From Aquipluma nitroreducens (GTDB lineage: Bacteria; Bacteroidota; Bacteroidia; Bacteroidales; Prolixibacteraceae), in NCBI RefSeq assembly GCF_009689585.1, contig NZ_AP018694.1, positions 3,797,001 to 3,861,000 of the forward strand: 64,000 bases of DNA. The letters are read 5' to 3'. The notes under the pieces were generated by a model. It saw only the letters and a list, made by a program, of their open reading frames with translations. It was not told the origin of the DNA and did no database searches. The translations under genes and the position numbers were made by a program. Below, in pieces: positions 8,694 to 22,401 of this stretch; positions within the stretch are counted from its first letter, which is position 1; each line of letters begins with the position of its first letter.

Positions 8694-10577
8694 ATGAGTG
8701 GTTTTAATGTGCGTTTGAGGCTGACAACGTTCGCAATAGCAGCGATTTTTCTGGGCTTAGCCTCCTGTGGCAATCGGTCGGAGAGTGGAAAGGCTGTTGC
8801 CGATTCTAAATCTTCAGTTGATGTTCCTGAAGAAGTAAATCAGGATGATGCTGCGCAAGCCGTTGTTGCGTTGTTGGTTTCGCCTGAAAATCCACGCCCT
8901 GGACAAGTGTTTCGCGTGATGGTAACCGGTGGAAAAGACATCAGGAAAGCAGAAGTTAAAGTAAAAAGTTCTTCAGGAACAATAAAATTGGAGAAAAGCA
9001 AAAGCGGTGACGGTTTGTCTTATTGGCAGATTGCTGAATTTAAAGCCGGTACTGACGGAAAATATCACGTTTCAGTGGATGGAAATAGTGCGGCTAGTTT
9101 GGATTTTCAGGTAACGGCCAAACCCTTGCAGTCGTCGTCGAATATGGTGTGGAAAACCATGCAAAGTTGGAATGGCAAGACGGAAGCGCTTTATTCTGCC
9201 TGGATAAATGCTTTGTTTCAGGATTCGAATGAAAGTGCATCGTGGAAAGCTTTGAACGAAACGACCGAGAATAAGGAAAATAACTTCCTTTACAATTATC
9301 TTTCGTTGGGCGAGGATGACGCTTCCGGAAAGATCAAGGTGCTAATGACACCCGATTGTGCGGATAACCCTTTTTATCTGCGGGCTTATTTCTCGTGGAA
9401 ACTTGGGCTTCCATTTGGCTATCATGAATGTGATCGTGGTTACCTGGGTAAGGCTCCCCATACCGGACGTTGGATCACCAATGAGACAATTATTTCTAAA
9501 ACGAATCCCACACAGAAATTCAATACTTTTGCACGAATGATCATGAATGGTGTTCATTCGGGAACTGCCAGGACTGCTTTTGCCGATGAAAGTTCCGACT
9601 ACTATCCAATTCCGCTTACTCATTCGGCTTTGCGCCCTGGAGCTGTATTCGCCGATCCGTATGGTCATACCCTGATTCTTGTACGAACCATTCCTCAAAC
9701 CAGCGATAGTCCGGGAGTGCTTCTGGCAGTTGATGCACAGCCTGACAAAACAGTCGCGATTAAACGATTCTGGAAGGGTAATTTTCTATTCAATACAAAC
9801 AACAAGGAAGTGATCGGAGAACCCGGATTTAAAGCCTTTCGCCCGATTGTTGAGAGTAATGGAAAGCTGAGACTTTTGAAGTCAACTGAGATCAATGCAA
9901 ATTCCGAATTAGTTCCGTTTTCACTTCAGCAAAAGGGAATGGAAAGCACAAAATTCTATCAATCCATGGAGCGGGTTATTAATCCGAAACCAATGGATCC
10001 GGAAATGGCTTTACTCGATTTGATCAATGCCTTGAATGAACAGTTGAATGTGAGGATTAACTCGGTTGGAACTGGCGAAGAATATATGAAATCACATCCG
10101 GGCACGGTTGTCCCAATGCCTGGCGGAACTTCCGGAGTATTTCAGGCCGGTGGTCAGTGGGAAGATTTTTCGACACCAAACCGCGATTTAAGGTTGCTGA
10201 TTGCGATGGACGCTGTTCAGGATTTTCCGAATAAGATTGTTCGTTCTCCTGATGACTTTAAAATACCTATGCTTCAGTCTCCGGAAAAAGTGAAGAGAAA
10301 TCTGGAAGAGCTTTTAGCGAAAAAAGCGAATGAACTTTCGATCACCTATACCCGCTCCAATGGCAGTAAGCAAACCCTGACCATTGCAGAAATTCTGAAA
10401 CGAAAAGAAGCTTTTGAAATGGCATATAACCCGAATGACGGTCCTGAAATTCGTTGGGGTGCGCCCGAAAAAAGCGAAGAACGTTCAACCTGTATACGGC
10501 ACGTGCCGGCCAATCAACTTGCAACTATGAATAAAGTTCGTGTGTGGTTTCAGAAACGATTGCATCCACCAACATAA
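8694..10577 (+). CDS. large exported lipoprotein of unknown function
   Basis: The 627-residue product has a lipoprotein signal peptide (MSGFNVRLRLTTFAIAAIFL, lipobox LASC near residue 26). Residues about 55-140 look like an Ig-like beta domain (SPENPRPGQVFRVMVTGGKD). The central part has a CADNPFYLRAYFSWKLGLP segment, a YHECDRGYLG segment, and later FADPYGHTLILV and LLAVDAQPD. The order Cys, then His in a GHT strand, then Asp resembles transglutaminase/NlpC-like hydrolases, but I cannot assign a family and no catalytic role is claimed. The C-terminal quarter is rich in charged helices. It stands alone between two divergent or convergent units and is probably periplasmic or outer-membrane anchored. 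Confidence 0.75.
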   Translation: MSGFNVRLRLTTFAIAAIFLGLASCGNRSESGKAVADSKSSVDVPEEVNQDDAAQAVVALLVSPENPRPGQVFRVMVTGGKDIRKAEVKVKSSSGTIKLEKSKSGDGLSYWQIAEFKAGTDGKYHVSVDGNSAASLDFQVTAKPLQSSSNMVWKTMQSWNGKTEALYSAWINALFQDSNESASWKALNETTENKENNFLYNYLSLGEDDASGKIKVLMTPDCADNPFYLRAYFSWKLGLPFGYHECDRGYLGKAPHTGRWITNETIISKTNPTQKFNTFARMIMNGVHSGTARTAFADESSDYYPIPLTHSALRPGAVFADPYGHTLILVRTIPQTSDSPGVLLAVDAQPDKTVAIKRFWKGNFLFNTNNKEVIGEPGFKAFRPIVESNGKLRLLKSTEINANSELVPFSLQQKGMESTKFYQSMERVINPKPMDPEMALLDLINALNEQLNVRINSVGTGEEYMKSHPGTVVPMPGGTSGVFQAGGQWEDFSTPNRDLRLLIAMDAVQDFPNKIVRSPDDFKIPMLQSPEKVKRNLEELLAKKANELSITYTRSNGSKQTLTIAEILKRKEAFEMAYNPNDGPEIRWGAPEKSEERSTCIRHVPANQLATMNKVRVWFQKRLHPPT

Positions 10578-11592: not shown

Positions 11593-12366
11593 ATGAGTAA
11601 ATCGTGTATTCTCTTCTGCAATTGTGGTGCGGGTGTAATTACTTTGGAAAAATCGCAACAAATCAAATCCAGTCTTGAAACTCTTGATGCTGATGTTTAT
11701 CAGCTCGATGATTTTTGTGGAATTGTTTTGGGTAGAAAGGATTTTATCCGGGCGATTGATCAACAATACGAGCGAAAAATAATGATCGCCTGTTATCCAC
11801 GAGCGATTAAAAACCTGCTGACTCAAAACGATCTGGAATTTTCAGGATTGGAAGTCTTGAATTTCAGGGAATTGACGGCTGGTGAAATTGAATCAAAATT
11901 GCAGAAGGATTATTCGTTTGCAGAAGGAAAAGTTTCTGAAACACGGATTGAAAGTGGGTTAGATGTTCCTGCCTGGTATCCGGTAATCGATCAGCCATTG
12001 TGCATCGATTGTGGAAAATGTTTCAAATTTTGCTTGTTCGGTGTTTATACTTTTGGCGACAAAAAGCTGAAGGTAGTTAATCCATTGGCTTGCAAAAATA
12101 ATTGCCCGGCTTGCGGTCGAAACTGTCCAACTTCGGCGATCATTTTCCCGAGACTGAAAGAAGGCGGAGTTTTGGCTGGCGCAGAGCCGGGAACAGAAGT
12201 AAAATCAAAAGGCTTGGCTGCTGACATAAATATGATCTCAACGCTGAAACAGCGCTCGGCATTACGGAGGAATATTTTCAGGGCTGGATTGGTCGAGCAG
12301 GCTGAAGCTGAACGGCAGAAAGCATTAGACGAATTGAAGAATACGTCCAAAGGATTGAAGATGTAG
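11593..12366 (+). CDS. 4Fe-4S ferredoxin-domain protein, first gene of the isoprenoid locus
   Basis: The 257-residue soluble protein has two parts. The N-terminus (CILFCNCGAGVITLEKSQQI) has the CxCG pattern seen at the start of HdrA-like redox proteins, followed by an alpha/beta domain. From about residue 137 a two-cluster ferredoxin module follows: CIDCGKCFKFC, then CKNNCPACGRNCP near 167-178. A charged helix ends the protein. It probably passes electrons to a partner, and the radical SAM gene starting 46 bases later is the obvious candidate. I know no characterised homologue with this combination. Its start ATG is 166 bases from any other gene, so a promoter is expected in the gap 11426-11592. 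Confidence 0.78.
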   Translation: MSKSCILFCNCGAGVITLEKSQQIKSSLETLDADVYQLDDFCGIVLGRKDFIRAIDQQYERKIMIACYPRAIKNLLTQNDLEFSGLEVLNFRELTAGEIESKLQKDYSFAEGKVSETRIESGLDVPAWYPVIDQPLCIDCGKCFKFCLFGVYTFGDKKLKVVNPLACKNNCPACGRNCPTSAIIFPRLKEGGVLAGAEPGTEVKSKGLAADINMISTLKQRSALRRNIFRAGLVEQAEAERQKALDELKNTSKGLKM

Positions 12367-12389
12367 GGTCAGGACATGTCCTGACCCTA
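12364..12389. repeat. perfect 26-bp palindrome spanning the stop codon
   Basis: TAGGGTCAGGACA is followed immediately by its exact complement, with no loop. The first three bases are the stop codon of the ferredoxin gene. There is no T run, so it is either a mobile palindromic repeat or an operator-like site between the first two genes of the locus. Confidence 0.75.
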
Positions 12390-12412
12390 CCAGATAACAC
12401 ATACAATTGCAA

Positions 12413-13594
12413 ATGGGATTATTAAAAAACATACTGATCCGGAGCGACAGGAAATGCTTGTACAAGTTTGTTGTAAACATGGGCATCAAAGGTTCCATGT
12501 CGTTTGCGAGGTTTCAGAAACGGCAAAAGAAAGGTGAGTTTTTCCCGGCCTTTAATTTTATTTCGGTTACCGACGATTGCAACCTGAATTGCCAGGGCTG
12601 CTGGGTGATGGGAAAGGAGAAAAACAGCCGTCTGAAGCCCGAACAAGTTGACCGGATCATCGATGATACAAAAAAAATGGGCTCCTATTTCTTCGGAATT
12701 TTGGGTGGCGAGCCTTTGTTGTATAAACCACTTCCGCAGATATTCAAAAAACATTCGGATTGCTATTTTCAGTTGTTTACCAACGGAACACTCATTACTC
12801 CTGAAGTGGCGGAAACATTGCGCCAGTGTGCTAATGTGACTCCGCTCATCAGTTTTGAAGGTGACGAGCAAGTCGCCGACGTGCGCCGTGGTGGAAAAGA
12901 TGTGTTTCAATCGGCGAATACTGGAATCGATAACTGTGTCAAAGCAGGTCTGATAACCGGAGTAGCCATCAGCGTTTGCAAGTCGAACCTCGAAATGGCC
13001 ATGTCGCCTCAATTTATCCAAGCACTGATTGATAAAGGAGTTGCTTATTTGTGGTACTACATTTATCGCCCGGTTGGACATCAACCCAATTACGAACTGG
13101 CGCTTAGTTCCGATGAAATCCGCCAGCTTCGCCAGCACATGGTTGATGCCCGGATGAAATACAGCATTGCGATTATTGATACCTATTGGGATGCTGATGG
13201 AAAAGGCATGTGTCCGGCTGCTGAAGGCCTGAGCCACCACATCAATGCTTCGGGATATGTCGAGCCTTGTCCGATCATTCAATTTGCAACCGATCATGTT
13301 GACGAAAAATCGTTGGATCGCCTGTATGCCGAATCTGGATTTCTGGGCGATTTCAGGACGCAGATTCAACAAAAAACAAAAGGTTGTGTTGTGATGGAAG
13401 ATCCGCGCTGGCTGGCCGAATTTGTACAAAAGCATAATGCTAAAAATACATCAGGACGAAAAGGTGAACTCGAACGATTGCAATTGGCTACTGAAGCCAA
13501 CAGTCATGGTTCGTGTGAAGTAATTCCGGAGAAAAGCCGGATTTACCGCTTTGCCAAGAAACGGGCATTTTTCGGACTGGGAGCTTATGGATAA
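12413..13594 (+). CDS. radical SAM protein with extra cysteine motif (SPASM-like)
   Basis: The roughly 393-residue enzyme has the radical SAM CxxxCxxC motif (CNLNCQGC, residues about 56-63), a GGEPLLY motif for SAM binding and a TNGTLIT strand. Later cysteines (GKGMCPAAEG, GYVEPCPII, KGCVVMEDP, HGSCEVIP) could bind an auxiliary cluster, as in SPASM proteins. The opening segment with KGSMSFARFQKRQKKG resembles the HpnH-type and peptide-modifying branches, but it is not clearly either. The ATG at 12413 is preferred over an in-frame TTG at 12407. The neighbouring ferredoxin could be its electron donor. An isoprenoid substrate is suggested only by context. Confidence 0.85.
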   Translation: MGLLKNILIRSDRKCLYKFVVNMGIKGSMSFARFQKRQKKGEFFPAFNFISVTDDCNLNCQGCWVMGKEKNSRLKPEQVDRIIDDTKKMGSYFFGILGGEPLLYKPLPQIFKKHSDCYFQLFTNGTLITPEVAETLRQCANVTPLISFEGDEQVADVRRGGKDVFQSANTGIDNCVKAGLITGVAISVCKSNLEMAMSPQFIQALIDKGVAYLWYYIYRPVGHQPNYELALSSDEIRQLRQHMVDARMKYSIAIIDTYWDADGKGMCPAAEGLSHHINASGYVEPCPIIQFATDHVDEKSLDRLYAESGFLGDFRTQIQQKTKGCVVMEDPRWLAEFVQKHNAKNTSGRKGELERLQLATEANSHGSCEVIPEKSRIYRFAKKRAFFGLGAYG

Positions 13595-13611
13595 AAAGTT
13601 CCGAGTAAGCT

Positions 13612-13680
13612 AGAGATTGGAGTGCCTAAAGTACTTCAAACCTAACTCTAGGCACTCCGAACTTTAGGCACTTCGAACTT
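13612..13680. repeat. AGTGCCTAAAGT-type intergenic repeat
   Basis: The gap before the fusion gene contains GAGTGCCTAAAGT, TAGGCACTCCGAACTTTA and GGCACTTCGAACTT in direct and inverted arrangement, so several alternative hairpins are possible. Repeats of this composition are common between genes in Bacteroidota. It may add a processing or pausing site within the operon. Confidence 0.6.
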
Positions 13681-13690
13681 AAAATTTGAA

Positions 13691-15262
13691 ATGAAGATTA
13701 AAGAAAACATACTGTCAGTTCCTGAAGAGGCTTTAACGAGGAATCGGTTGAGAAAAGCGGCACGCGATCTTATCGTAGAGCGGGGCATTTTGCCTCCGGC
13801 AAGCTTCACGCTGATTAGTCAGTTGGCTGATGAGGTGATTGCATTGACCGATACCGATACGAGCTTTCGTGAATTCGCTATGGTGGTTTGCGGAAACGAG
13901 ATTTGGCGGCCAATAGTGGCAGCAACTCCCTATAATCGCAGGCTTTTGCTCTTGCCTCAATGCCTGAAAAATAATAGCAATTGCAATGCGGTTATCGACG
14001 AGTTGGGTTTGATTTGTGCCGGTTGCCAAAGTTGCCAGATTGATTCGATTTTGCAAAAGGCCGAATCGCTTGGTTATGCCACTCTTGTTGCAGAAGGAAC
14101 GACAGTGGCTGTTAGTTTGGTTCAGGAAGGAACAATTGATGCCGTGATAGGCGTAAGTTGCATGTCGGTGCTTCAGAAGTCGTTCGAGCCTGTTTCGCGA
14201 GCTGCGGTCCCTGTAATTGGTATTCCGCTTTTGTTTGAAGGTTGCGCCGAAACCGATGTTGATGGCCGCTGGTTAAATGATGAGTTGATCGCTTTTCAGG
14301 ATAACGAACAATTCCGGAGCCTGTCAGTTTCAGCTTTGAAGGAAACGGTAAAGCAATTTTTTACTGAAGATACCCTTTCGAAAGCTTTTGATTCAATCGA
14401 TGATCGAACCTGTCAATTGGCCATTCAGTCGATGTTAACAGGTGGCCAGCGAATTCGTCCGCTGTTGACGGCATTGGCTTATTCGGCCTACGCTGCAACT
14501 GTTTCTGACGAATTAATGGCTTCACTTTCGCTGGTGGTTGAATGTTTCCACAAGGCATCACTCATTCACGACGATGTGGAAGACAACGACGATTTTCGTT
14601 ACGACACCGAAACCATTCATAAGCAAAATGGTATCCCAGTTGCGATCAACACCGGCGATTTTTTGCTTGGAGAAGGCTACGAATTACTCGGAAAACTCCC
14701 GATTGAACCGACTAAAATGGCTGCCTGTTATCAGTTGGTGGCTTCCGGACATGTGGCCTTGTCGCTCGGACAAGGAGCCGATTTGCTGGCCAGTTCGCAA
14801 AAAACCATTCTTCCACTCGATCAGCAACTCGAAATTTTTGAACGGAAAACGGGCTCGGCTATTCGTGTGGCTTTGCTGCTTGGAGCGGTTGCTGCCAATG
14901 CTCCTGAATGCGATTTGGCTATTCTGAAAACATTTTCAGGATATTTCGGAATGGCCTATCAAATAAAAGACGATCTGGATGAATTCCGTGACGCCAACGA
15001 ACATACACAAACGGCTGATTATCCTTTGTTACTTTCAATATTGGCTGAAAATTTGGAAGAATCTCAGTTGACAAACCTTCGCCTGATTTATGCTGAAAAT
15101 GATCGTTTACAAATTTCAGCATTGATCCTTGAGCATGAGATTGATCGGAAAGCCGAAGTTTTACTTCAGGAATACACCGATAAAGCCTACCGCGAACTCG
15201 ACAAAATTGAAAATTTGAAGATGAGATTGAGTTTGTACACCGTGCTGGGCAAAATATTTTGA
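13691..15262 (+). CDS. DUF116-polyprenyl diphosphate synthase fusion
   Basis: Two domains are visible in 523 residues. Residues about 15-210 match DUF116, with its cysteine-rich part CLKNNSNC (91-98) and CAGCQSC (109-115), then VIGVSCMSVLQKSFEP. Residues about 220-523 are an all-alpha trans-prenyl diphosphate synthase: GGQRIRP, the first Asp-rich motif HDDVEDND (about 292-299), and the second motif IKDDLDEFRD (about 427). Both Mg-binding motifs are intact. Such enzymes condense isopentenyl diphosphate with allylic diphosphates to C10-C20 or longer chains. Chain length is not predictable here. The DUF116 cysteines may bind a metal or Fe-S cluster, which would link prenyl synthesis to the upstream redox genes. 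Confidence 0.88.
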   Translation: MKIKENILSVPEEALTRNRLRKAARDLIVERGILPPASFTLISQLADEVIALTDTDTSFREFAMVVCGNEIWRPIVAATPYNRRLLLLPQCLKNNSNCNAVIDELGLICAGCQSCQIDSILQKAESLGYATLVAEGTTVAVSLVQEGTIDAVIGVSCMSVLQKSFEPVSRAAVPVIGIPLLFEGCAETDVDGRWLNDELIAFQDNEQFRSLSVSALKETVKQFFTEDTLSKAFDSIDDRTCQLAIQSMLTGGQRIRPLLTALAYSAYAATVSDELMASLSLVVECFHKASLIHDDVEDNDDFRYDTETIHKQNGIPVAINTGDFLLGEGYELLGKLPIEPTKMAACYQLVASGHVALSLGQGADLLASSQKTILPLDQQLEIFERKTGSAIRVALLLGAVAANAPECDLAILKTFSGYFGMAYQIKDDLDEFRDANEHTQTADYPLLLSILAENLEESQLTNLRLIYAENDRLQISALILEHEIDRKAEVLLQEYTDKAYRELDKIENLKMRLSLYTVLGKIF

Positions 15263-15272
15263 TTCTTCGATT

Positions 15273-16169
15273 GTGACTAATCCTACTCATATTCCTTTCT
15301 ATCGACAAATGATTGCTTTGCTCCGAAATGCACTGAACCTGCTGGACGAACAGGGTAGGGAAGAGGTGCTTAAATTTCTAATGAGTCAGCAAAATCCGGA
15401 TGGTGGTTTTCAGGATCGTGGTGGACGGTCGGACTTGTATTATTCGTTGTTTGGTGGGTTGATGCTCGGGGCATGGGGCTCGGGGCAAAGGGCAAGGAGT
15501 CTTAAGTCCGAAGATCTGCTCCCTGAGCGCGAAGCACTCGAAGGGGCAATTCTGAAACTAAGCAAATTTATTGCTCAACAGCAAAATTCCGAAGTGCCCG
15601 GATTTATCGAGAAATGTTGTTTAGTACTTCTTCAGAAGGAATTGAATTCCGGACAAAATTCACAAATTAGAGCAATGATTTCATTGGGGAAATCATTTTG
15701 GAAAGAACGTCGGTCCATCAATTTGTCGTACCGCGGTTTTGTGTTATTTCTGATATTGGATGCTGTTTTGCCTTTTCGAAGTAGCCTGAAGTTTGGCGCA
15801 AAAAGAATGTTGGCGCGAACAACAATCGATCAGCATTCGCCATGCTCTGAAGTGGCGGCCAGAGTTTTCCTGCAAAAAATGATGAATCAGGACGGATCGA
15901 AAGATCAGGAATTGCTGAAGTCGTTTGCCTGCGAAATGGGTGGGTTCAAAGCTTTTGCTCATCTGAATAATGCGGATATGTTATCGACTGCTGTTGCTTT
16001 GTTTGCATTAAGTTATTCAGTCTACGATTTGCGCTTGTTGAAACCATCCTGTCTCGATTTCATCGAACAAAACTTTGCTGGTGGTGCATTTCTCTCCGGA
16101 GATGGCGACCCAACTGCCGATGTGGAATATACATTTTATGGTTTGCTGGCACTGGGAGTATTGGGGTAA
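15273..16169 (+). CDS. prenyltransferase-beta/squalene-oxidase repeat protein
   Basis: The 298-residue all-helical protein has repeats of the alpha/alpha-barrel superfamily shared by protein prenyltransferase beta subunits and terpene cyclases. Diagnostic pieces are QQNPDGGFQDRGGRSDLYYS near the N-terminus, GGFKAFAHLNNADMLSTAVA, and GDGDPTADVEYTFYGLLALG at the end. It lacks a DxDD motif, so it is unlikely to start class II cyclisation alone. The GTG at 15273 lies 10 bases after the previous stop, and an ATG at 15309 is the alternative. It may be a partner subunit of the downstream cyclase-like protein or a separate prenyl-binding enzyme. A damaged copy of its last 20 codons occurs at 16770. 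Confidence 0.78.
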   Translation: MTNPTHIPFYRQMIALLRNALNLLDEQGREEVLKFLMSQQNPDGGFQDRGGRSDLYYSLFGGLMLGAWGSGQRARSLKSEDLLPEREALEGAILKLSKFIAQQQNSEVPGFIEKCCLVLLQKELNSGQNSQIRAMISLGKSFWKERRSINLSYRGFVLFLILDAVLPFRSSLKFGAKRMLARTTIDQHSPCSEVAARVFLQKMMNQDGSKDQELLKSFACEMGGFKAFAHLNNADMLSTAVALFALSYSVYDLRLLKPSCLDFIEQNFAGGAFLSGDGDPTADVEYTFYGLLALGVLG

Positions 16170-16173
16170 TAAT

Positions 16174-16472
16174 CTATAGCGAAATGGTAGATTTCTCTGG
16201 GTTTTGCCGGTTGTCCCAAACGGATAAAACTATGATTTCGGTTGAAGTAATTTGATATATAATGAGGTAGTTCTTAAGTATTTTTACCCTAACATTGTCT
16301 TTATTTGTGGGTTTTCCGATGAACGGCAATTTGCAGATTAGCTGCAACGAGTCTTTTATCAATTCGTTCAGTTTGCGACTGTATATGCTTGATTAGTTTC
16401 GCTCATTCCAGAAATGAAGAATTTCTTTTCTTTCAAACTGAGCTCTTTTGTCCAGATTATTTGCCTAACCAT
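16174..16472 (-). pseudogene. ParE/RelE-family toxin, decayed
   Basis: The last 62 residues (KILKNYLIIYQITSTEIIVL, VWDNRQNPEK) are clearly the end of a RelE/ParE ribonuclease or gyrase-poisoning toxin. Reading upstream, an ATG at 16472 overlaps the antitoxin gene's last codons, as is usual, and begins MVRQIIWTK. Two lesions follow: one A is missing from an A run at about 16447-16450 (AAAA where AAAAA is needed), and a TAA at 16395-16393 interrupts the restored frame after FWNERN. Adding one base makes the span exactly 100 codons, the usual toxin size. The gene cannot make full toxin unless both are errors. Confidence 0.78.
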
Positions 16473-16693
16473 TCGTCAATGTTTTTGTCAGCTTGTTCTT
16501 CAGTTAAAAACTCACCATTTTTGTATTGAAGTTGACCTTCTTCAACGGCTTTTATCTGTTCTTCTGAAAGTTCATAGACACTAATATCAGCTTCTTCGTT
16601 GGCAATCAATCGGTACATTTCTTCCAACAAATCATCGTTTTCTGATTGGCCTATTTTGTGTATTAATCTTTTCTTTAATTCTCTTGCAGTCAT
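16457..16693 (-). CDS. antitoxin of a ParE/RelE-type module
   Basis: The 78-residue product starts MTARELKKRLIHKIGQSEND and ends in an acidic LTEEQADKNIDEWLGK, the common form of antitoxins paired with ParE/RelE toxins in Bacteroidota. An N-terminal helix would bind DNA or dimerise and the acidic tail would bind the toxin. Its end overlaps the toxin start by 16 bases. The frame is intact although the toxin is broken, so it is now an orphan. The pair lies on the opposite strand to the surrounding isoprenoid genes and looks like a later insertion. Confidence 0.78.
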   Translation of the reverse strand: MTARELKKRLIHKIGQSENDDLLEEMYRLIANEEADISVYELSEEQIKAVEEGQLQYKNGEFLTEEQADKNIDEWLGK

Positions 16694-16769
16694 GGTATTT
16701 CGTTTTTACAAACTTACAAAATTAGTTTGTACGAATCCTTTACTCGAAATTGCAATCTTGCCTGTTTGC

Positions 16770-16835
16770 GACGGCGATTACACTGCCGATATAGAGAACA
16801 CATTTTATGGTTTGCTGGCGCTGGGGGTGGTCTAT
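16770..16835 (+). pseudogene. remnant of a duplicated prenyltransferase-beta-like gene end
   Basis: About 62 bases are roughly 80 percent identical by eye to 16103-16164, the last codons of the prenyltransferase-beta-like gene (encoding GDYTADIENTFYGLLALG versus GDPTADVEYTFYGLLALG). Nothing upstream matches. Most differences are at third positions, so the copy probably comes from a divergent paralogue, not from a fresh duplication. The antitoxin/toxin pair lies between the two copies. Confidence 0.65.
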
Positions 16836-16858
16836 GTCTGTTGTGATGGCTGGAGTTC

Positions 16859-17117
16859 ATCGTATCAATAATTAGCAAAAGTGAAGGTGATACGGTTGTC
16901 CACGTCTGTGGTTTTGGGCAAATCGGAAAAAGTAGGCTGACCACAAGTATGGTTTTGTCCAAATCGGTAAAAGTAGGTCAACCACAGCTGTGGTTTTGTT
17001 GAAAATGTGGAAAAGGAGCTTAGCCACACCTGTGGTTGGGGCCAAAATGGAAAAAGGAGGCCAAACACACTTGTGGTTAGGTTCAAAAAATGAAATGCTG
17101 ATCAATCACACCTGAAG
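16859..17117. repeat. 41-bp tandem array with palindromic CCACANNTGTGG core
   Basis: Cores start at 16900, 16941, 16982, 17024, 17065 and 17106, i.e. spacings 41, 41, 42, 41, 41. A half unit precedes at about 16871. The core (CCACGTCTGTGG, CCACAAGTATGG, CCACAGCTGTGG, CCACACCTGTGG and so on) is a near-palindrome followed by TTTTG. The second half of each unit has CAAATCGGAAAAAGTAGG-like sequence. Units decay toward the 3' side. The array ends at the start codon of the cyclase-like gene. The period is not a multiple of three, so it is not a repeat protein. Confidence 0.8.
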
Positions 17118-17118
17118 T

Positions 17119-18990
17119 TTGCAAGAAAACGAATATCTTGCATCTTTATTCAGAAAAATGAATCAGAACCCCGAACATATCCAATTCCAATTTTCTGAAC
17201 TCAGCACGCTTCTTCTTCAAAAGCGCAACGTTGCTGGTTATTGGGAAGGCTGTTTGTCTTCAAGTGCGTTGGCGGTTGCGGTTTCCATTACGGCATTGCA
17301 TTTTTACGATGCAATTCTAAATACCTCAGAGATTTCATCAGGCTTAAATTGGTTGGAGACTAACCTAAATGCTGACGGCGGTTTTGGCGATTCACCCGGA
17401 AGTGTGAGTAATGTGAGTACGAGCTTGCTGTGTTATTCGGCAGTAAAAGTTTGCAGCGCCGATGATCAATACACACCTCTGCTCCTGAAACTCGGCGATT
17501 ATTTGCGTACGCAAAACATTGATGTGAATTCGGAACAACTTATTCCGGCGATACTTGATTTTTATAAAACGGATCGGACTTTTTCGGTGCCAATACTCAC
17601 CATGTGTGCTTTATGCGGTGTTCCAGGTAAAGAAGCATTTGAATCGATTCCTCAGTTGCCATTCGAACTTTCGTTGTTGCCGCGATCATTTTATCGGATG
17701 CTCAATCTGAGTGTGGTGAGCTATGCTATTCCGGCATTGATCGCTGTTGGTATCACTATTTTCAGGTTTAAGAAAAGGAAAAATCCATTGATGCGGTGGA
17801 TTCGAGAAGCTTCGGTCAATAAGTCGCTTGCTTTGCTGCGTAAGATTCAGCCGCATAGTGGAGGATACCTGGAAGCCATTCCGTTGACTGCATTTGTGTG
17901 TCTGTGTATGGTCGAATCTGGATACCGCGATTTGGAAGTGATCCATGATGGAATGAATTTCCTGAAACGGACTCAGCGGAAAGACGGAAGCTGGCCGATT
18001 GATATTGATCTTTCGACATGGGTAACGACTCTTGCCGTAAAATCGCTCCGAAGTAATATAGATAAAGTGTTGATATCAGCAGAAAGGCAGCGAATTACCG
18101 ATCATTTGTTGGCAATTCAGAATATGGAAATTCATTCGTTTAACGGAACTCAACCCGGAGGTTGGGGTTGGACTTCGCATTCTGGCTCGGTACCCGATGG
18201 CGATGACACTCCCGGAACAATTCTGGCCTTATTGACATTGAATCAAGATGATCCGACAGTTGTTCAGGAAGCTGTTTTATCGGGTCTAGGCTGGTTGCGC
18301 CAATTGCAGAACGGTGATGGCGGTTTTCCTACTTTTTCGCGCGGTTGGGGCAAGTTGCCGTTCGATCAGAGTTGTTCTGATTTAACCGGGCATGCGATTT
18401 TGGCGCTGGCCCAAACAGCTCACTTATTTGGCGATTCGCTCAGCCAAAAACAACTTTCGGAAATTAAAAAATCATTTGTCCGTTCAATTATCTATCTGGA
18501 AAAACATCAGGATCAATCGGGATTTTGGCTGCCTTTGTGGTTTGGAAATCAAAATACACCCGGTCATGCAAATCCGGTTTACGGAACCGCGCGGGTGACT
18601 GCTTACCTGAACGAAGCGTTGATTACCCAATTGGGCGTAGAATATTCGGTTGTCCTGAAACAAATGATTAATCGCGGCTGTCAATATCTCGTTTCTGTGC
18701 AAAATCAGGATGGGAGCTGGGGCGGAGCCAAAAACATTCAAGGAAGTATTGAGGAAACTGCACTTGCCGTTACAGCACTTGCGCCAAATGGGTTTCGGGA
18801 GGAGTGTACTTCAGGAATGAATTGGCTGACAGAAAAAACAAAATCCGACGGGATTGTTGCCTCACCCATCGGATTGTACTTTGCTTCTTTGTGGTATGAT
18901 GAAGAAATGTATCCTCTGACAGCGTATCTGGAATGTTTGTCGGTAAGCGTGGAGACTATTTCGTCACCACTACCGCCGGACTCACTTTAA
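17119..18990 (+). CDS. squalene-hopene-cyclase-like class II terpene cyclase
   Basis: The 623-residue protein has the length and repeat structure of squalene-hopene cyclases. A DxDD-type acid motif occurs as VPDGDDTPG (about residues 358-366) after GGWGWTSHSG. QW-like repeats are QNGDGGFPTFSRGWGKLP, QNQDGSWGGAKNIQGSIEE and KDGSWPIDIDLSTWVTTLA. A hydrophobic stretch (VVSYAIPALIAVGITIFRF) may attach it to the membrane. The conserved Asp acid suggests proton-started cyclisation of an isoprenoid. No squalene synthase is in the window, so a diterpenoid or other chain is possible. The TTG at 17119 abuts the repeat array, and an ATG at 17158 is the alternative start. It overlaps the convergent OB-fold gene by 35 bases. 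Confidence 0.83.
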   Translation: MQENEYLASLFRKMNQNPEHIQFQFSELSTLLLQKRNVAGYWEGCLSSSALAVAVSITALHFYDAILNTSEISSGLNWLETNLNADGGFGDSPGSVSNVSTSLLCYSAVKVCSADDQYTPLLLKLGDYLRTQNIDVNSEQLIPAILDFYKTDRTFSVPILTMCALCGVPGKEAFESIPQLPFELSLLPRSFYRMLNLSVVSYAIPALIAVGITIFRFKKRKNPLMRWIREASVNKSLALLRKIQPHSGGYLEAIPLTAFVCLCMVESGYRDLEVIHDGMNFLKRTQRKDGSWPIDIDLSTWVTTLAVKSLRSNIDKVLISAERQRITDHLLAIQNMEIHSFNGTQPGGWGWTSHSGSVPDGDDTPGTILALLTLNQDDPTVVQEAVLSGLGWLRQLQNGDGGFPTFSRGWGKLPFDQSCSDLTGHAILALAQTAHLFGDSLSQKQLSEIKKSFVRSIIYLEKHQDQSGFWLPLWFGNQNTPGHANPVYGTARVTAYLNEALITQLGVEYSVVLKQMINRGCQYLVSVQNQDGSWGGAKNIQGSIEETALAVTALAPNGFREECTSGMNWLTEKTKSDGIVASPIGLYFASLWYDEEMYPLTAYLECLSVSVETISSPLPPDSL

Positions 18991-20857: not shown

Positions 20858-21241
20858 TTAGTTGTTTAATTTACCGTTGTCAATCCATTTTTGCAATTTG
20901 CTGATTTCGCAATCGGTTAGCTTGCCACCGCCCTGAGGCATTGCCTGGTATCCGGGTGTATGATTAATAGTTCCCATCAATTTTCCATTGTTCGTTGAGA
21001 TCAGAACATCGGCATAATTTTCAAGTTTTACGCCTCCTCCCGAGTTTGCAGCTTTTGAATTTGAGTGGCAAGACAAACACGAAGCTTGCAAAATTGGCTT
21101 AACCGTAGTGGCAAAGGTGACGTTTGACAAATCACATGAGGAGGAAACTTGTGGATATAGTTTTTCTTCCGTGTCGTAGTAACAACCTGAAACAAAGGCA
21201 ATCAACAGAATAAGGCTTGTTTTTATTATTTTATTCATCAT
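20858..21241 (-). CDS. small cytochrome c-like lipoprotein
   Basis: The 127-residue product has a lipoprotein signal (lipobox VSGC near residue 20) and one canonical haem-attachment motif CLSCH in VKPILQASCLSCHSNSKA. A later YQAMPQGG segment offers a methionine that could be the distal ligand, and EISKLQKWIDNG is the C-terminal helix of the fold. It resembles the third domain of the larger protein encoded upstream, so the two probably arose by duplication. A role in periplasmic electron transfer is inferred. It needs the system II apparatus whose CcsA part lies at the window start. Confidence 0.8.
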   Translation of the reverse strand: MMNKIIKTSLILLIAFVSGCYYDTEEKLYPQVSSSCDLSNVTFATTVKPILQASCLSCHSNSKAANSGGGVKLENYADVLISTNNGKLMGTINHTPGYQAMPQGGGKLTDCEISKLQKWIDNGKLNN

Positions 21242-21248
21242 GCTGAGT

Positions 21249-22235
21249 TTAATTATATCCTTGATTTATCCATAATTCTACTTGTCTAACATCGCAGGTT
21301 GATAGCGCATAATCTGGTGGCATGGCTTTATATCCTGATTTTCTATTTAGGGCTCCAAGTAGTTTCCCGCTTTTTGCAACCGTTTGAACATCACTGGCGG
21401 TTAGTAATTTTATTCCTCCTGAAGGATTATTTGCTCCATGGCATGATACGCAATCTAACTCAATAATTGATTGAATATGACTTGTGTAATTGATTGCTCC
21501 AGTTGTATCACAAGGCGATGCGCACTCTTCATTTAGTCCTCCTCTTTTTATCCAGCTATAAATTGTATCGATAGCTGCTTTGCTTAAAGGTGAGTATGGT
21601 GCTGGTGGCATAAAATTATCAGAATTTTGTTTTGCTGTAATTGAGTTGTATAATGGGCTCGTTCCGGGGTTTCCAGGTTTAATGCGTTCCAAAGTTTTCG
21701 CATAACTGCTAAAATCAACTCCGTCCTTGTGCGTTGTTGCATTGTGACAACCTGAAACTGCACAACTACTCATTAATATGGGTTGAATGTCCCGATCGTA
21801 GCAAGCCCAAAGTGTTCCTGATTTAGTCGTCACTGCTGAACCTGTTGATCCACAGGTTGTTTCTTTAGCGCCTTGCTCGATCCATAAGCGGATAGTTGTT
21901 CGTTTGTCGATTGGAAGTGCATTGTTAGGTGGCATTAACTGGAAAGTACTAGTAATGGCCTGATAGGCTTTGCTTTTGTCAGCATTCCCGGCAGTAATTG
22001 CTTTCATAATACCAGAGTAATCAGTGAAGTTATATCCGTGTCCACCTCCACTACTATGGCATCCTGTTGTTCCACAACTATTCTGAAATATGGGTAGTAC
22101 TTCAGTTTGAAAACAAACTTCTGGAAATTGATCCGCCGGAATGCCTTCATGTTTGCAAGAGCTGGCCATAAATAGCATGAATCCACCCCCGATCAAAAAA
22201 AACAATTTTAAAAATCCGATTTTGTTGTCTTTCAT
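21249..22235 (-). CDS. three-domain cytochrome-like lipoprotein with CX4CH motifs
   Basis: From the ATG at 22235 (MKDNKIGFLKLFFLIGGGFM) the protein has 328 residues and a lipobox ASSC. Three similar domains follow, each with a VxPI(F/L)xxSC-type entry: CGTTGCH, CAVSGCH, and canonical CVSCH. Each has a downstream MPP or AMPP methionine segment and an IxxWIxxG helix. The first two have four residues between the cysteines instead of two, so haem attachment by the usual machinery is uncertain. The longer frame start (22265) would add ten residues before the signal peptide and is less likely. It is the first gene of the five-gene unit. Confidence 0.8.
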   Translation of the reverse strand: MKDNKIGFLKLFFLIGGGFMLFMASSCKHEGIPADQFPEVCFQTEVLPIFQNSCGTTGCHSSGGGHGYNFTDYSGIMKAITAGNADKSKAYQAITSTFQLMPPNNALPIDKRTTIRLWIEQGAKETTCGSTGSAVTTKSGTLWACYDRDIQPILMSSCAVSGCHNATTHKDGVDFSSYAKTLERIKPGNPGTSPLYNSITAKQNSDNFMPPAPYSPLSKAAIDTIYSWIKRGGLNEECASPCDTTGAINYTSHIQSIIELDCVSCHGANNPSGGIKLLTASDVQTVAKSGKLLGALNRKSGYKAMPPDYALSTCDVRQVELWINQGYN

Positions 22236-22401
22236 CTGTAAAATATTTATGATTTCTAAAAACAATCATATCCTCAAAAGGATCATGCCTTTTTTAAGAA
22301 ACAGGACATTGTTTTGTTAAAAATAATTAAAGGACAATAAGGTGCTAAATTCTGAATGTATTCAACAAAACCGTTGGACAATAAAATTATTGTGTTCCCG
22401 A

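Follow-up and report, generated by a model that had tools for sequence, protein, structure and literature searches.

Do five adjacent genes of Aquipluma nitroreducens, which bring together prenyl diphosphate synthesis, a DxDD-type cyclase and iron-sulfur (Fe-S) and radical S-adenosylmethionine (SAM) chemistry, serve one pathway? The question is raised by positions 11593 to 18990 of the stretch analysed here, hereafter the window (64,000 nucleotides; contig NZ_AP018694.1, positions 3,797,001 to 3,861,000 of the forward strand), which lies in a complete genome of 5.7 Mb in a single contig. The five genes are probably a real isoprenoid cassette that is undescribed within the open-licence literature and able to work without squalene synthase. 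Judging from the sequences, we consider it fairly likely that they form a single biosynthetic pathway to a cyclized isoprenoid lipid, in which a squalene intermediate is dispensable. The original prediction had placed an Fe-S protein, a radical SAM protein, a DUF116-synthase, a prenyltransferase-beta-like protein and a cyclase on one strand in this order, and the open reading frames (ORFs) and Pfam domains bear this out, all five ORFs being verified on the + strand:

11593–12366, + strand: gene 1, Fe-S protein of 257 amino acids (aa) (Pfam, motif reading)
12413–13594, + strand: gene 2, radical SAM protein of 393 aa (Pfam, alignment with relatives)
13691–15262, + strand: gene 3, fusion of DUF116 and prenyl diphosphate synthase, 523 aa (Pfam, alignment, structure model)
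13691–14320, + strand: DUF116 half of gene 3 (Pfam, alignment, structure model)
14570–14584, + strand: first aspartate motif (DDxxD) of the fusion, residues 294–298 (alignment)
14969–14983, + strand: second aspartate motif of the fusion, residues 427–431 (alignment)
15273–16169, + strand: gene 4, prenyltransferase-beta-like alpha/alpha toroid protein of 298 aa (alignment, structure model)
17158–18990, + strand: gene 5, squalene-hopene-cyclase-like class II cyclase, 610 aa from the ATG at 17158 (Pfam, alignment)

Conservation and co-occurrence of the cassette

Relatives of the fusion were sought in one genome per species, and the best 80 of at least 551 confirmed relatives were used as loci. 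Forty-two of them carry the label of Bacteroidota or of one of its groups (Chlorobiota in one case), including the nearest titled relatives, which are labelled Prolixibacteraceae or Bacteroidota; the other 38 bear Verrucomicrobia, Planctomycetes, Kiritimatiella, Lentisphaerae, Acidobacteria, Proteobacteria or plain "bacterium" labels. The complete five-gene set, in the same order and on the same strand, was present at 44 of the 80 loci (34 in the Bacteroidota group, 10 in the remainder), with examples in records labelled Bacteroidota, Verrucomicrobia, Planctomycetes, Kiritimatiella and Acidobacteria, while the order and strand of whichever cassette genes occur were kept at all 80. Because this order recurs across phyla, the gene set is more than chance. 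The alignments used below comprise every fusion, 81 with the window's own added to those of the 80 loci, 66 of 68 toroid proteins, without the long proteins L096 and L109, 24 of 60 radical SAM proteins, 29 of 54 cyclases, the accessory H-protein of eight of nine loci and, in alignment A7, 26 of 81 sequences.

Co-occurrence was counted over whole genomes in a sample of 288. The sample is one draw from a phylum of the PVC (Planctomycetes-Verrucomicrobia-Chlamydiae) group, namely that of G478, which is the Chthoniobacter flavus-titled genome with locus L100. Of the 288, 52 have the fusion. A strong cassette-cyclase match occurred in 51 of these 52 versus 2 of the 236 others (Fisher p 4.6e-53), and a radical SAM match in 48 of 52 versus 0 of 236 (Fisher p 1.9e-50), both p values being uncorrected for kinship. 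Four cyclase matches of 80–87 bits were counted as ordinary squalene-hopene cyclase (SHC), and their inclusion would raise the former count to 6 of 236. No cyclase gene lay within 20 kb of the fusion on its contig in 25 of 51 genomes, and no radical SAM gene in 16 of 48, so the co-occurrence is more than an effect of linkage. These counts are inflated by draft assemblies, but in G550, G670 and G673, for instance, the separate genes lie deep within long contigs. The recurrence of the genes in other genomes, set beforehand as the check on the original prediction, is thus seen both in the complete loci and in this association, and on the two together a chance neighbourhood was rejected.

Across 45 loci and the window, the tree distances of the radical SAM, fusion, toroid and cyclase genes correlate with r of 0.85–0.96, and all four trees split the Bacteroidota group from the remainder (support of 0.755 for radical SAM and at least 0.98 for the other three), which fits joint inheritance of the four genes. 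Within the genus of the host, 21 of 23 genomes (the window's own included) carry the fusion, with the cassette genes adjoining in the loci inspected; the two genomes without it are 97% and 95% complete. The cassette is rare in the window's phylum as a whole, since in an even sample of 395 genomes the single match at E 1e-40 was the window's own genome. The fusion was not found on plasmids in a tblastn search of 72,556 plasmid records at E 1e-30.

The cyclase and its substrate

Gene 5 belongs to the class II (DxDD) cyclase superfamily, as it carries both Pfam SQHop_cyclase domains (C, 93 bits, cut-off 26.1; N, 66.1 bits, cut-off 26.2) and the motif VPDGDDT, whose D-x-D-D is encoded at 18196–18207 and aligns with the DxDD of the solved SHC. 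VPDxDDT is invariant in all 54 cassette cyclases. The window cyclase nevertheless falls outside the squalene-hopene cyclase equivalog TIGR01507, with 77.9 bits versus a cut-off of 431.1. SHC and squalene synthase (SQS_PSY, PF00494) genes were searched for in 50 of the 80 loci's genomes, 36 of which have a complete five-gene locus. A canonical SHC was additionally present in 13 of the 50, scoring 428–470 bits against SQHop_cyclase_C in 12 genomes and 316 bits, as a fragment, in one, whereas the remaining matches listed reached at most 109.3 bits. With a cassette-cyclase model, 17 cassette cyclases scored 747–949 bits, partly by construction as the model was built from the same family, versus 73.6–116.6 bits for 12 canonical SHCs, whose low scores are not a product of construction; the independently made Pfam model gives the same two groups in reverse order. 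The cassette cyclase family is distinct from SHC. Among solved structures, the cassette cyclase matched SHC by sequence at 3.4e-35 and the drimenyl diphosphate synthase SsDMS (PDB 7xq4) at 1.2e-13. Retention of DxDD in relatives and a cyclase other than a known hopanoid enzyme, on both of which the original prediction depended, are therefore what was found.

The original prediction had further argued against a plain hopanoid cluster from the absence of squalene synthase genes in the window. Its conclusion stands, but the argument is weak, because the same genome carries two SQS_PSY genes elsewhere:

C1:1809804–1810526: SQS_PSY gene L116 (Pfam family)
C1:1250683–1251438: SQS_PSY gene L117 (Pfam family)

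Both adjoin a CrtI-like desaturase (recognised by eye), an arrangement that suggests two carotenoid-type loci. A better argument is that SQS_PSY matches are absent from 17 of the 50 fusion-bearing genomes. Twelve of these 17 hold a complete five-gene locus; Draconibacterium aestuarii and Mariniphaga sediminis, for example, possess all five genes and no SQS_PSY match. Since the cyclase lies far under the hopene-cyclase cut-off and these 17 genomes lack a match, its substrate would most likely be the prenyl diphosphate that the fusion itself produces, or a compound derived from it.

The proposed pathway and its alternatives

Gene 3 contains DUF116 (PF01976, 107.9 bits, cut-off 25) and polyprenyl_synt (PF00348, 132.6 bits, cut-off 27), and each half belongs to its family by features beyond the score. 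In the synthase half, these are the two aspartate motifs of a trans-prenyl diphosphate synthase, read from the sequence as HDDVED and DDLDE. The first motif is kept in all 81 fusions, as are the first two aspartates of the second, the fifth position of which is D in 57 and E in 24. Chain length in prenyl synthases is indicated by the residues at −5 and −4 before the first aspartate motif. Because Ala occupies −5 and Ser −4 (both, like Phe at −8, in 81 of 81 fusions), the predicted product is probably longer than farnesyl diphosphate (FPP). The best Foldseek match of the fusion model was 1wy0 (E 4.9e-11), and among NCBIfam models the synthase half matched an encapsulin-cargo prenyltransferase (117 bits), FPP synthase (105.2 bits) and, behind these two, heptaprenyl synthase component II (95.4 bits, far under the cut-off of 456.55).

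In the DUF116 half, seven cysteines (C91, C98, C109, C112, C115, C157 and C185) are invariant in 81 of 81 fusions. The predicted structure has a helical start followed by an alpha/beta core, and the cysteine loop is modelled at low confidence. When DUF116 was compared with solved structures, a single-sequence search gave no match at E 1 and a profile search none below 0.47; Foldseek with the whole fusion model had prenyl synthases among the matches listed and left the DUF116 fold unplaced. In the passages of a 2015 survey that treat the family, DUF116 is read as flavodoxin-like and predicted to act in electron transfer, and a DUF116-polyprenyl synthetase fusion is noted in Pirellula staleyi, Psta_0175 (PMC5898192).

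The radical SAM protein encodes CNLNCQGC at 12578–12601, and with this CxxxCxxC motif and a Radical_SAM domain of 60.2 bits (cut-off 29.5) it belongs to the superfamily, as do all 24 members scanned. Three additional cysteines, C267, C286 and C325, are invariant, in what we take to be a Twitch-like pattern. The 25 of 61 NCBIfam matches listed are all below cut-off, among them HpnH (TIGR03470, 36.8 bits versus 225.05), to which the protein is thus not assigned, and tetraether lipid synthase (34.5 bits versus 450). By sequence its best solved relatives are SkfB (9.8e-18) and cytosylglucuronate decarboxylase (1.6e-13), tetraether synthase being a weaker one (1.4e-06). In the Fe-S protein, the 4Fe-4S ferredoxin-type domains stay short of their curated thresholds, the best reaching 23.6 bits (E 4.5e-05) where 25 is required. 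An N-terminal domain with C9, C11, C42 and C67, which by eye presumably resembles the HdrA N-terminus, precedes a ferredoxin domain with eight cysteines, and the two parts are separate, adjacent ORFs in several non-Bacteroidota loci.

Gene 4 matches Prenyltrans (PF00432) only weakly (22.6 bits versus a cut-off of 26.5). The zinc ligands of protein prenyltransferase beta subunits are Asp, Cys and His. The invariant residues of 66 toroid proteins are D54, Y56, Y57, F60, Y153, F156, D235, L237, Y286 and Y289, and no Cys or His is found among the invariant or near-invariant positions of this alignment; by score and by residues, gene 4 stands outside that family. Its structure model is confident (predicted local distance difference test, pLDDT, 93.4). 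Ranked by E-value, Rab geranylgeranyl transferase beta and drimenyl diphosphate synthase match it best, with TM-scores of 0.39–0.42, and complement C3/C5 fragments follow with weaker E-values and higher TM-scores of 0.51–0.58. Because the complement fragments exceed the prenyltransferases in TM-score, the modelled match would tell of the toroid fold rather than of function.

Next in frequency to the cassette genes is a CobW-type GTPase, encoded close to the fusion at 18 of the 80 loci. Pfam scanning covered ten neighbour families, none of them counted as core: CobW-like GTPase, H-protein-like, PQQ- and NHL-type, MFS, M20 peptidase, histidine kinase, ArsP-type permease, DUF4831 and a family-less 1155-aa protein. 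The H-protein-like ORF, with an EGFKA lipoyl-type lysine site, lies upstream in nine non-Bacteroidota loci (e.g., L092:5107–5586) and is followed by the CobW GTPase in seven of them. Strong H-protein matches (at least 147.8 bits; next 86.8) occurred in 11 of the 288 genomes, all with the fusion (11 of 52 versus 0 of 236), and within 5 kb of the radical SAM gene in 7 of the 11. In some of the carriers the H-protein is apparently connected with the radical SAM step.

In the pathway that we favour, the synthase half would form a linear prenyl diphosphate, and the DxDD cyclase would protonate this chain, or a derivative of it, and fold it into rings. The toroid protein may be a partner of the cyclase or a second cyclase-like unit, and the Fe-S protein could supply electrons to the radical SAM enzyme and/or the cysteine-rich DUF116. 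Both of the latter may act on the same isoprenoid, before or after cyclization. The product might then be, as the original prediction proposed, a polycyclic isoprenoid modified by the radical SAM enzyme.

Several observations weigh against a single squalene-independent pathway. Flanks of over 3.5 kb before and over 6 kb after the fusion are available at 44 loci (a different set from the 44 complete loci); the whole cassette stands side by side in only 29 of these, and in four the fusion is alone. In the 288-genome sample, four fusion genomes lack the radical SAM match, G696 has the fusion and no cyclase match, and G622 and G730 have a cyclase match and no fusion. Squalene use is possible in the 33 of 50 fusion-bearing genomes with SQS_PSY matches and in the window's own genome, which lies outside the 50 and holds its two SQS_PSY genes. 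Many of the 50 are metagenome-assembled genomes or drafts, in which absence may reflect incompleteness.

One alternative would have the radical SAM enzyme attach a 5'-deoxyadenosyl group, or a different one, to the hydrocarbon after cyclization; the result would be a membrane lipid bearing a polar side chain. HpnH adds a 5'-deoxyadenosyl group to hopene, and membership of the same superfamily, a plausible order of steps and the three invariant auxiliary cysteines are consistent with such a transfer. However, the closest solved relatives are SkfB and cytosylglucuronate decarboxylase, none of the seven entries is named HpnH (possibly absent from PDB), and no nucleosidase occurs among the ten scanned neighbour families, rarer neighbours lying outside that scan. 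We regard this transfer as possible, though unlikely.

Rather less likely is that the cassette makes or modifies an isoprenoid redox cofactor, with DUF116, the ferredoxin and the H-protein-like parts as electron-transfer machinery. The electron-transfer role predicted for DUF116, the confinement of strong H-protein matches to fusion genomes and the CobW-type GTPase near the fusion all point that way, but the H-protein and CobW are accessory and outside the core, and the ten scanned families, which leave aside rarer neighbours, include no quinone-ring or respiratory gene.

A bolder form of the favoured pathway is doubtful to a like degree. Here the DUF116 half would be a new Fe-S allylic-diphosphate reductase that removes the diphosphate from the polyprenyl chain with electrons from the ferredoxin-like partner, after which the hydrocarbon would be folded by the DxDD cyclase and functionalised by the radical SAM enzyme; the analogue is IspH, which removes a hydroxyl reductively. 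If true, polycyclic membrane lipids would here be made independently of oxygen and of squalene, by a route common to PVC bacteria, part of the Bacteroidota and at least one Acidobacteria record, and orphan sedimentary terpanes might derive from it.

A route like that of the Bacillus sesquarterpenes, from heptaprenyl diphosphate through a large terpene synthase and an SHC-like cyclase, with the redox genes serving another purpose, seems improbable. It shares the squalene-free logic of a long-chain synthase with an SHC-like cyclase, and the synthase half does match heptaprenyl synthase component II. No such terpene synthase, however, is found among the five genes or the ten scanned neighbour families (no genome-wide search was made for PF10776 or the UbiA type), and the radical SAM gene is as tightly associated with the fusion (48 of 52) as is the cyclase (51 of 52).

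Very improbable, finally, is a divergent hopanoid cluster in which the cyclase would form hopene from squalene supplied by genes at another site of the genome and the radical SAM protein would perform the HpnH step: the SHC domains of gene 5, the weak HpnH match and the two SQS_PSY genes would suit it, but the cyclase score, the separate canonical SHCs, the 17 genomes without SQS_PSY and the CrtI-like neighbours of both SQS_PSY genes speak against it, and a plain hopanoid cluster was rejected on the first three.

Surroundings of the cassette and known systems

Aligned with relatives, the sequences suggest that the radical SAM gene starts at the ATG at 12413 rather than the TTG at 12407, and that the cyclase gene starts at the ATG at 17158 rather than the TTG at 17119, which would give 623 aa. 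Genes 4 and 5 are separated by about 1 kb in the window and by a short gap in many relatives:

16170–17157, no strand: spacer between genes 4 and 5, outside the conserved cassette (repeat analysis)

Within it, 59 bases of the gene 4 tail (16101–16159) recur at 16770–16828, 669 bases downstream, with 80% identity, and may be what is left of a degraded duplicate. Four 41-base direct repeats at 16894–17058, spaced by 41–42 bases, lie immediately 5' of the cyclase gene, three copies being 61–78% identical to the reference copy. A perfect 26-base palindrome at 12364–12389 begins at the gene 1 stop codon and lies between the Fe-S and radical SAM genes; allowing up to three mismatches, it occurs once in the window. 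Upstream of the cassette, 8694–10577 encodes a 627-aa protein, a lipoprotein by eye, with no Pfam family above cut-off; downstream, on the − strand at 20858–22265, are proteins of 127 and 338 aa with CxxCH motifs (by eye), near a YceI-like gene. Runs of PQQ- or NHL-type proteins adjoin the cassette in the Bacteroidota loci L056, L061, L068, L071, L073, L074, L078 and L082.

The cassette was not found described in the open-licence PMC literature, subscription journals and preprints being outside that scope. Cyclized isoprenoids are membrane regulators and molecular fossils, and SHC-domain genes in the carrier groups are easily taken for hopanoid genes. Should the cassette cyclases be a separate family that works without squalene, hopanoid potential could be overestimated in these groups, and an unseen lipid class may await extraction. 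The pathway would also give DUF116, a family of unknown function, its first pathway setting. The question can already be put to the test, since some named strains have the complete cassette and no SQS_PSY match.

The nearest published counterpart of gene 3 is Psta_0175 of the planctomycete Pirellula staleyi, a fusion of the same kind, for which the survey likewise proposes electron transfer by DUF116; its passages on this protein name the fusion alone, without the radical SAM, toroid and cyclase proteins (PMC5898192). Tetraether lipid synthase (Tes, PDB 7tol) is also a radical SAM enzyme acting on isoprenoid lipids, but the cassette protein is far under its model's cut-off and matches it weakly by sequence.

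Hopanoid clusters consist of HpnC/D/E, SHC, HpnH and HpnG, and resemble the cassette on two points: their DxDD cyclase belongs to the same superfamily, and their isoprenoid pathway likewise involves a radical SAM enzyme. They differ in that the cassette proteins are far under the hopene-cyclase and HpnH cut-offs, and in that the cassette cyclase is separate from the canonical SHC and occurs without an SQS_PSY match. The Bacillus sesquarterpene pathway, with heptaprenyl synthase, tetraprenyl-beta-curcumene synthase and SqhC, is likewise squalene-free, whereas the five cassette genes include no class I terpene synthase and do include DUF116, the radical SAM protein and the Fe-S protein. SsDMS is a DxDD class II cyclase acting on a prenyl diphosphate, and it matches the cassette cyclase in sequence and the toroid protein in fold; the cassette cyclase, however, is closer to SHC, and the remaining cassette genes are, to our knowledge, not part of the drimenyl diphosphate synthase system. 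The pairing of a prenyl synthase with a DxDD cyclase is already known, and we know of no pathway that combines it with a fused DUF116, this Fe-S protein and this radical SAM family, as the cassette does.

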